Of a stretch of DNA of 8,824 bases, positions 6,572-8,349 are shown one piece after another. A program made the position numbers and the translations under genes. Position 1 is the stretch's first letter. The number at the start of each line of letters is the position of its first letter. The notes under the pieces were generated by a model. It saw only the letters and a program-made list of their open reading frames with translations, searched no databases and was not told the DNA's origin. The DNA lies in contig JASHQT010000582.1 of assembly GCA_030039005.1 (NCBI GenBank), forward strand, positions 1-8,824, written 5' to 3'. The DNA is from Bryobacteraceae bacterium. GTDB taxonomy: Bacteria; Acidobacteriota; Terriglobia; Bryobacterales; Bryobacteraceae.

Positions 6572-7618
6572 ATGTCGAACTCCAGGCAATCCCAATTGAT
6601 CGGTGAGAGCGCCCCATTCCTGGCCGCTCTCGAACAGGTGGAAATGGTAGCGCCCGCCGACTGCGCGGTTTTGATTCAGGGCGAGACAGGAACCGGAAAA
6701 GAACTCATCGCCCAGGAGATTCATTCGCGCAGCCGGCGCGCGAACGGCCCCTTCATCCGCATGAACTGCGCGGCGATTCCCGCCGGGCTTCTGGAAAGCG
6801 AATTATTCGGGCACGAGCGCGGGGCCTTCACCGGCGCTCTGACGCAGAGGATCGGCCGGCTGCAGGCCGCCCATCGGGGCACGCTGTTTCTAGACGAGAT
6901 CGGGGAACTGCCGCTCGAGCTTCAACCCAAACTTCTGCGCGCACTTCAGGAGCAGGAGTTCGAGCGCCTGGGAAGTACGCAGACCATTCACGTGGATGTG
7001 CGCATCGTCGCCGCGACCAATCAGAATCTCGAGGAGATGGTCGAGGAGCGCACCTTTCGCGCGGACCTCTACTACCGCCTGAACGTGTTTCCCATCCAGT
7101 TGCCGCCCTTGCGCGAGCGCGTGGACGACATTCCCGTCCTGGTCCGGCATTTTATGCGCGAATTCGCCGTGCGGATGAACAAAGGGGTTGAGAATGTCCC
7201 GGAACACGTGATGGACGCCCTATGCCACTACCCGTGGCCGGGAAACATTCGCGAACTGCAGAACGTCATTCAGCGAGCCGTGCTTCTAACGGAAGGGCGC
7301 GACCTGGAACTTCGGCTGCCGGATCTAGTCCCGCCGGAGGGCCTGTCGGTCATTCCCGCCGCGAACCGGACGCTGGCCGAGATGGAACGCGTCCACATCA
7401 CCGAGACCTTGGAACGCGTGAACTGGGTAGTGGGCGGCCGTGAAGGGGCTGCGGCAAAACTAGGGCTGCCGAGAACAACTCTTATCGCGCGTATGCGGAA
7501 ACTGGGGATTTCGCGCGGCGCGTTGCAATTGCGGAGGTCGGCCGTGGACTCCCACGGCGGCATGGCGGATGTGAACCACAACCGGCGCGATGCCTTCGCA
7601 TACGCCGGCGCGATGTAG
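6572..7618 (+). CDS. Sigma-54-dependent transcriptional activator (AAA+ with Fis-type HTH), no sensory domain
   Basis: Bacterial enhancer-binding protein that uses ATP hydrolysis to open promoters bound by sigma-54 RNA polymerase. Numbered from ATG 6572, the AAA+ domain starts about ten residues in: Walker A GETGTGKE (37-44), the sigma-54-contacting loop GAFTGA (84-89), Walker B LFLDE (D108, E109), arginines R163 and R169 in the arginine-finger region, and PGNIRE (223-228). A Fis-type helix-turn-helix lies at about 288-313 (EGAAAKLGLPRTTLIARMRKLGI). All the motifs are intact. There is no receiver, GAF or PAS domain in front, so activity is probably set by expression level or a partner protein, as known for HrpR/HrpS and PspF. 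About 35 unconserved-looking residues follow the HTH. The next gene downstream is an ECF-like sigma factor with a sigma-54-type promoter, its likely target. Confidence 0.95.
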   Translation: MSNSRQSQLIGESAPFLAALEQVEMVAPADCAVLIQGETGTGKELIAQEIHSRSRRANGPFIRMNCAAIPAGLLESELFGHERGAFTGALTQRIGRLQAAHRGTLFLDEIGELPLELQPKLLRALQEQEFERLGSTQTIHVDVRIVAATNQNLEEMVEERTFRADLYYRLNVFPIQLPPLRERVDDIPVLVRHFMREFAVRMNKGVENVPEHVMDALCHYPWPGNIRELQNVIQRAVLLTEGRDLELRLPDLVPPEGLSVIPAANRTLAEMERVHITETLERVNWVVGGREGAAAKLGLPRTTLIARMRKLGISRGALQLRRSAVDSHGGMADVNHNRRDAFAYAGAM

Positions 7619-7638
7619 CTCACCCGTAGGCTTTCCCA

Positions 7639-7671
7639 TGTCGTGTTACGACAGGCAGTCGGCTGTTCGAC
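7639..7671. promoter_or_regulatory. Candidate upstream activator sites: paired GTCG/CGAC inverted repeats
   Basis: Site 1 is the inverted repeat TGTCGTGTTACGACA (7639-7653; 6-base arms, 3-base centre). Site 2 is GTCG-GCTGTT-CGAC (7658-7671). They share the GTCG/CGAC arms and a TGTT core, and their centres are about 18 bases apart. A further GTGTCG (7685-7690) can pair with CGACAC (7668-7673). Relative to the start predicted from the sigma-54 element they sit near -94 and -75, a usual position for enhancer-binding protein sites. That the upstream neighbour binds here is inference. Confidence 0.6.
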
Positions 7672-7708
7672 ACGCCGGACGCAGGTGTCGTTGCTGAATC
7701 AATCACTT

Positions 7709-7738
7709 AGCGCTGGCAATCCGGATGCATCCAGCGCT
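7709..7738. repeat. Perfect 8-base inverted repeat enclosing the sigma-54-type promoter
   Basis: AGCGCTGG (7709-7716) is exactly inverted as CCAGCGCT (7731-7738), with 14 bases between. The left arm covers the GG of the -24 element and the right arm lies just past -12, so anything bound here would cover the promoter. It could be an operator. A transcript from the predicted start (about 7740) would not include it. Confidence 0.6.
7714..7729 (+). promoter_or_regulatory. Candidate sigma-54 (-24/-12) promoter of the ECF sigma gene
   Basis: TGGCAATCCGGATGCA matches the known consensus TGGCACG-N4-TTGCA at TGGCA and TGCA. The invariant GG (7715-7716) and GC (7727-7728) are exactly 10 bases apart. 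Transcription would start near 7740, leaving a leader of about 30 bases that contains the AGGA ribosome site (7762-7765). The gene just upstream encodes a sigma-54 activator, which supports the call. It was found by eye and has not been scored against the genome. Confidence 0.7.
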
Positions 7739-7770
7739 CCAGGTAGACAAACCCATAGAACAGGAATCCG

Positions 7771-8349
7771 ATGCCCAATCAACAAGAATTCGCCGATTTG
7801 CTTCAAACCAACTTGCTGGCGCTGAACCGCTTCGTTCTGGGGATGGTCGGCAACCACTTCGATGCCGCGGACATCGTGCAGGAAACAGCAGCCAAGGCGT
7901 TTATCCACTTCGCCGATTTCCGGGCTCAGGCCAAGTTCAAGACCTGGCTCATGAGCATCGCACTCAATGAAGTGCGCGGCCGGAGGCGGCGCGAAGCCCG
8001 CTCGCGCTTGTCGTATTTTGAAGTCGAGCACTTGGAGCAATTAGCGACCGCCACCGCGGGCGATTCGCCTTACCGCCAGTATCAGGAGCGGGAGGCCAGC
8101 CGGATACTCAAGGACGCAATGTCGTCCCTGCATCCTTCCAATCAGGATGTCTTGCGCCTGCGCGCCTTCGACGAACGCGATATTGTGGACACCGCGCGGC
8201 AGCTTTCCATCTCCGTACCGGCCGCGAAGGCGCGCTATTTTCGAGCCGTCCGGCATCTCTCGCGCGAGTTGGTGCGGCGGACGCGAAGGCCGCTGCGGGC
8301 GCCGGTACCATCGGCGCGGAAGAAAGCGCTCCGGCCTGCGGAAAATTAG
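7771..8349 (+). CDS. RNA polymerase sigma-70-family factor, ECF type
   Basis: Alternative sigma factor of 192 residues that should direct core RNA polymerase to its own promoter set. Region 2 spans about 14-78 and includes the typical DAADIVQETAAKAF (31-44) and FKTWLMSIALNEVRGRRRR (56-74). Region 4 covers about 113-167 (SLHPSNQDVLRLRAFDERD, then the HTH around ARQLSISVPAAKARYFRAVRHL). There is no region 1 or 3, as expected for the class. A basic, arginine-rich tail (168-187) follows region 4. AGGA (7762-7765) lies 5 bases before ATG 7771, which fixes the start. No anti-sigma factor gene follows; within about 35 bases the sequence turns into a transposase fragment. The promoter context suggests sigma-54 control. 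Confidence 0.93.
   Translation: MPNQQEFADLLQTNLLALNRFVLGMVGNHFDAADIVQETAAKAFIHFADFRAQAKFKTWLMSIALNEVRGRRRREARSRLSYFEVEHLEQLATATAGDSPYRQYQEREASRILKDAMSSLHPSNQDVLRLRAFDERDIVDTARQLSISVPAAKARYFRAVRHLSRELVRRTRRPLRAPVPSARKKALRPAEN

Follow-up and report, generated by a model that had tools for sequence, protein, structure and literature searches.

Organization of the locus

What switches on the ECF-type sigma factor encoded in this stretch of acidobacterial DNA, and is its gene the output of a sigma-54-dependent cascade? We analyzed the whole stretch of 8,824 nt (hereafter the window), in which an earlier note had seen a compact relay made of a sigma-54 activator without a sensory domain, a -24/-12 promoter element and an ECF sigma gene. 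The parts of this relay and their integrity, as well as the recurrent association of the activator with a two-component system, can be read directly from the sequence.

The minus strand encodes a sensor histidine kinase with a Reg_prop propeller and a Y_Y_Y domain (1782–4955; PF07494, PF07495, PF07730, PF02518), a small ORF without a Pfam match that resembles a membrane protein and is DoxX-like by eye (5113–5664), and a NarL-type response regulator (5661–6287; PF00072, PF00196). The activator gene, divergent from the regulator gene, lies on the plus strand and encodes a receiver-less, FhlA-like sigma-54 enhancer-binding protein of 348 aa (6572–7618; PF00158, PF25601, PF02954). It is followed on the same strand, after a gap of 152 bases, by the ECF-type sigma factor gene (7771–8349, 192 aa), where the domains Sigma70_r2 (PF04542) and r4_2 (PF08281) bear out the original assignment. 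Directly 3' of the ECF gene lies a remnant of the C-terminal part of an ISL3-family transposase (8403–8528; PF01610, E 4e-11); no anti-sigma gene was recognized in the 475 bases, this remnant included, that the window holds downstream of the ECF gene. Scans of the window against Rfam (gathering threshold) and for tRNA genes gave no matches.

At the other end of the window, an outer-membrane receptor-like gene is represented by two minus-strand ORFs (about 3–620 and 214–1785) with an apparent change of reading frame in their overlap (214–620), which is either real or an assembly error. As far as the few source names that state a taxon go, the relatives of the ECF sigma factor and of the activator are Bryobacteraceae MAG proteins, while those of the regulator come from Gemmataceae and Acidoferrales MAGs as well.

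The activator

The Pfam matches of the activator are Sigma54_activat (246 bits, with related AAA models), AAA_lid_14 and HTH_8, and no receiver, GAF or PAS domain was matched. It thus consists of an AAA+ domain, its lid and a Fis-type HTH (7370–7504, residues 267–311, PF02954), as expected for the sensorless protein described previously. The Walker A motif GETGTGKE and the GAFTGA loop, which contacts sigma-54 and whose codons were read at 6821–6838 (plus strand), are invariant in all 27 sequences of alignment A2, i.e. that of the window and 26 relatives picked from the 120 matches listed. GAFTGA has been described as the mark of a functional sigma-54 activator (PMC3162934). Judged by these motifs, the protein should be an active enhancer-binding protein without a sensor and, since it has no sensory domain, it is probably controlled by its amount.

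Its top NCBIfam match is the FhlA model (418 bits against an equivalog cut-off of 830), of which it covers the C-terminal half only (profile positions 376–691). Like FhlA-type proteins it combines AAA+ with a Fis-type HTH, but it lacks the N-terminal half, does not reach the equivalog score and has no recognized formate genes around it in the window. PspF-type short activators share the architecture of AAA+ and HTH without a regulatory domain; the PspF-type model, however, matches more weakly (286 bits, cut-off 443.55), and no psp-like genes were recognized in the window.

The region upstream of the ECF gene

The 152-base gap contains a single sense-strand site with a score of at least 7, namely TGGCAATCCGGATGCA at 7714–7729, which lies 57 bases ahead of the ECF start. 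The exact GG-N10-GC spacing claimed for it holds, with 9 of 12 consensus positions matched and P of 0.027 by shuffling. Across the window and related DNA, sites of such quality number 57 in 310,516 strand-bases, a background that corresponds to about 0.03 per gap of this length. The element is enclosed by a perfect 8-bp inverted repeat, AGCGCTGG/CCAGCGCT (7709–7738), which the earlier note did not mention and for which P is 0.026. On the plus strand, site calling gave no sigma-70-type site in 6280–8824 and no terminator-like site within the gap.

Two candidate upstream activator sites precede this element: the perfect dyad TGTCG-N5-CGACA (7639–7653) and the dyad AGTCG-N6-CGACA with one mismatch (7657–7672). 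Their centers lie about 94 and 75 bases ahead of position 7740. The inverted repeats reported 75–95 bases upstream are therefore present but unremarkable when taken alone, as a perfect arm of at least 6 arises in 36% of shuffles of the gap and 13% contain a 5-mer with four or more copies. By themselves, the dyads are within chance.

Homologs of the ECF sigma factor

The ECF sigma factor belongs to a tight family with 462 homologs, 37 of which were aligned with the sequence of the window (alignment A1). The best NCBIfam sigma models are other than HrpL (ECF32), and all scores are below the cut-off except that of the ECF superfamily. The family was found in one of 200 genomes of the taxonomic family, one of 257 of the order and one of 399 of the class (16, 12 and 8 first-look candidates scored per genome, respectively), each time the same genome, G001, which carries two close copies (loci L001 and L008). 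A search of genome contigs yielded six loci with one close relative, the other five being 26–34% identical; there were no relatives in viral contigs and no match in plasmids.

Upstream of the ECF gene at L001 there is a -24/-12 element, TGGCAATAAAGATGCT, identical to that of the window at 12 of 16 bases, with the same P of 0.027 and at a distance of 40 bases from the start. A dyad with one mismatch, TGTCG-N6-CGTCA, ends 51 bases ahead of it. At L008, the 110 bases upstream of the ECF copy lack a GG-N10-GC site scoring at least 7 of 12, and no dyad was found at this locus even with one mismatch allowed. Of the two close homologs with DNA available, one thus has the promoter element and a related dyad. 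In the MAFFT alignment the elements of the window and L001 are out of register and the remaining gap aligns poorly. The gene for the sigma factor that such a promoter needs, rpoN, whose absence would speak against the relay, was found in 15 of 15 genomes, namely those that head the list for the L001 order; the genome of L001 is one of them.

The genes around the ECF copies differ. At L001 a MarC gene precedes the ECF gene, no activator is adjacent, and the convergent neighbor encodes a Ser/Thr kinase; a kinase neighbor is seen at only one of the three loci (the window, L001 and L008). At L008, the neighbors of the ECF copy include a YetF-type protein and an outer-membrane efflux protein, of which the latter may point to a role in efflux or the envelope. 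Among the ECF neighbors scanned (two at L001, three at L008) no anti-sigma family was found. The activator has 22 matches in G001 at E 1e-60 or better, the best being 61% identical; the five that were read are all longer proteins with sensory parts recognizable by eye. A 7-bp hairpin (GTCGCTT/AAGCGAC) abuts the ECF start codon at L001 (5981–6000, by eye), and none was seen in the window.

Search for the combined pattern

A joint pattern of a dyad followed after 35–65 bases by a -24/-12 element was searched for genome-wide, with the reversed pattern as control. It showed no enrichment across 257 Bryobacterales genomes (one match against three for the reversed pattern), and a looser version gave three against three in a set of 16 genomes, namely those with an activator match (15) and G001. 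This lends no support to an operator common to all short activators, and the pattern was rejected as a genome-wide operator test. The sole match in the 257 genomes (L057, 1501–1592) lies before a small ORF without a Pfam match and an AcrB-type efflux gene; it is suggestive and was not counted as support. In the genome of this match, G210, short activators in tandem also lie next to genes for outer-membrane efflux and HlyD proteins (L045). The looser pattern in the 16 genomes added two further matches, at L113 and L114.

Neighborhood of the activator in other genomes

With 8 candidates scored in each, 15 of the 257 Bryobacterales genomes gave a total of 18 activator matches at E 1e-122 or better. 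After exclusion of four whose open frames span 677–743 aa, 14 short-activator regions were examined. On the downstream side three of them tell little, since the contig stops 21 bases past the activator match in L049 and fewer than 480 bases past it in L048 and L056. None of the 14 regions contains a close ECF homolog; L055 has a weak 37% ECF fragment at the far edge of the region. Homologs of the regulator of the window (56–76% identity) are present in four regions (L043, L046, L049, L051), a homolog of the kinase without a regulator match in L056, and weak receiver matches (25–33%) in six more (L047, L048, L050, L052, L054, L055), whereas three regions (L044, L045, L053) show none of these. 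In L046, the kinase, the regulator, a small membrane protein and the activator follow each other in this order on one strand.

The converse survey started from 22 regulator matches with at least 70% identity, two of which lie in L043 and L046; the 20 other regions were examined. Activator homologs were present in three of them (L099, L100, L103), and no ECF homolog passed the filter of 33% and 1e-8 in any. Homologs of the small ORF 5113–5664 adjoin regulator genes elsewhere, too. Two candidate sites considered in these regions were discarded: AGGTAT repeats before the kinase gene, taken as a possible site for the NarL-type regulator, are not common to the upstream stretches of 21 homologous loci, and a sigma-54-like site just past the activator HTH in L099 falls within the end of the coding sequence and has no counterpart in L043.

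We also compared the contig sizes of homologs (120 listed each for the regulator and the activator). Eight contig sizes of at least 5 kb are equal between these two lists, and one, 12,021 bases, is shared by the ECF homologs with both; the regulator homolog P0242, the activator homolog P0123 and the ECF homolog P0001 are all listed on a contig of this size, which probably keeps the regulator–activator–ECF trio. Equal size can mislead, as 98,147 bases is the listed length for P0169 as well as for a contig of G001, and this G001 contig does not encode P0169; the eight coincidences are therefore support beside the directly examined loci, not proof.

These surveys show that the kinase–regulator unit is widespread and that the activator is repeatedly found beside it, while an ECF gene next to the three is seen only in the window and probably in one related contig. 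The recurrent neighbor of the activator is a two-component system, not a sigma gene. Thus the pairing of activator and ECF gene suggested by the earlier note recurs in none of the 14 short-activator regions but probably on the single 12,021-base contig. Its reading named the parts correctly but missed the two-component neighbor, which the window encodes as well.

The proposed relay and its alternatives

The best reading of the locus is a chain of propeller kinase, NarL-type regulator, activator, sigma-54 and ECF sigma factor, with the ECF gene having joined recently; the cascade is then more aptly described as the lower half of a relay headed by a two-component system. The level of the activator would probably be set by the adjacent kinase and NarL-type regulator. 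Encoded upstream of its target, the activator may bind the candidate dyads (7639–7672), loop to the holoenzyme and remodel it via the GAFTGA loop, and sigma-54 RNA polymerase would then transcribe the ECF gene (7771–8349) from the element at 7714–7729 with a start near 7740. The ECF sigma factor, with no anti-sigma gene recognized beside it, would be controlled mainly by being made. We infer the use of the promoter, the identity of the dyad-binding protein and the action of the NarL-type regulator on the activator. The step from sigma-54 to the ECF gene is moderately supported, and the cascade is plausible at about even chances, resting mainly on the one homologous promoter at L001. As a whole, the explanation in which the kinase and regulator set the activator, and the dyad-bound activator has the ECF sigma factor made from the sigma-54 promoter at 7714–7729, is the best that the sequence offers, and we put it just short of an even chance.

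The two genes may instead have become neighbors by recent rearrangement, in which case the activator would serve other promoters, the ECF promoter would be ordinary, and the -24/-12 element and dyads would be chance matches. The ISL3 remnant directly downstream indicates mobile DNA at the locus, and the statistics of the element and dyads are modest. The compact relay of the earlier note is weakened by the same observations that favor such a history: L008 has no -24/-12 site, none of the other short-activator and regulator regions examined yielded the pair, and the joint pattern is not enriched; in its favor are the -24/-12 element and related dyad at L001, the rpoN genes and the lack of an anti-sigma family among the ECF neighbors scanned. 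Since the -24/-12 element recurs before the homologous ECF gene at L001 and the plus strand of 6280–8824 has no called sigma-70-type site, we regard the rearrangement as possible but rather doubtful.

L001, where a promoter element and a dyad-like site occur without an adjacent activator in a genome with as many as 22 activator matches at the above threshold, would also fit a different arrangement: part of the ECF family could be sigma-54-dependent with a trans-acting activator that is not the same in every genome, the one adjacent in the window being incidental. This is unlikely given the apparently intact, HTH-bearing activator that precedes the sigma gene of the window by 152 bases and the contig that probably keeps the trio. 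Finally, the common strand, the 152-base gap and the lack of a called plus-strand terminator-like site in it would allow the activator and ECF genes to be read through from one upstream promoter, with the ECF sigma factor controlled post-translationally, e.g. through an anti-sigma factor encoded at a distance or through a protein kinase such as the Ser/Thr kinase encoded next to it at L001. A gap of this length with a promoter-like element of its own is, however, long for an operon, and the kinase neighbor is confined to one of three ECF loci, making read-through very improbable.

Comparison with known systems

HrpR and HrpS of Pseudomonas syringae, to which the locus had been likened, are activators without a receiver, and in the HrpR/HrpS–HrpL system, as proposed for the window, a sigma-54 activator and a sigma-54 promoter lead to an ECF sigma factor. 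The proposed wiring is alike, but the two-component system beside the activator makes HrpX/HrpY–HrpS–HrpL of Pantoea stewartii, which comprises all four elements, a closer parallel than HrpRS–HrpL alone. Reviews describe the Hrp relay as a two-component system, a sigma-54 activator and promoter, and an ECF sigma factor controlled by transcription, and name HrpL as the sigma-54-controlled ECF sigma factor (PMC8103513, PMC8999054). No acidobacterial cascade from sigma-54 to an ECF sigma factor was found described in a search of the open literature, with most subscription-journal papers outside its scope, in agreement with the earlier note.

A tentative and rather improbable extension of the preferred reading is that the window contains a four-tier acidobacterial relay of about 6.6 kb, i.e. 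an independently assembled counterpart of HrpXY–HrpS–HrpL built from other protein families, in which an older kinase–regulator–activator module has recently captured the ECF gene, perhaps for an envelope or efflux role. If true, a relay made of other families would suggest that the sigma-54-to-ECF wiring has evolved repeatedly, and it would give a first handle on receiver-less activators and on ECF sigma factors without anti-sigma partners in abundant, hard-to-grow soil bacteria.

The components of the window differ from those of the Hrp systems in several respects. The activator fits the FhlA model best, the ECF sigma factor is in a tight family of its own, and the kinase is of the propeller type. 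No secretion genes are among the genes recognized in the window, and the genes of the activator and the ECF sigma factor are adjacent.
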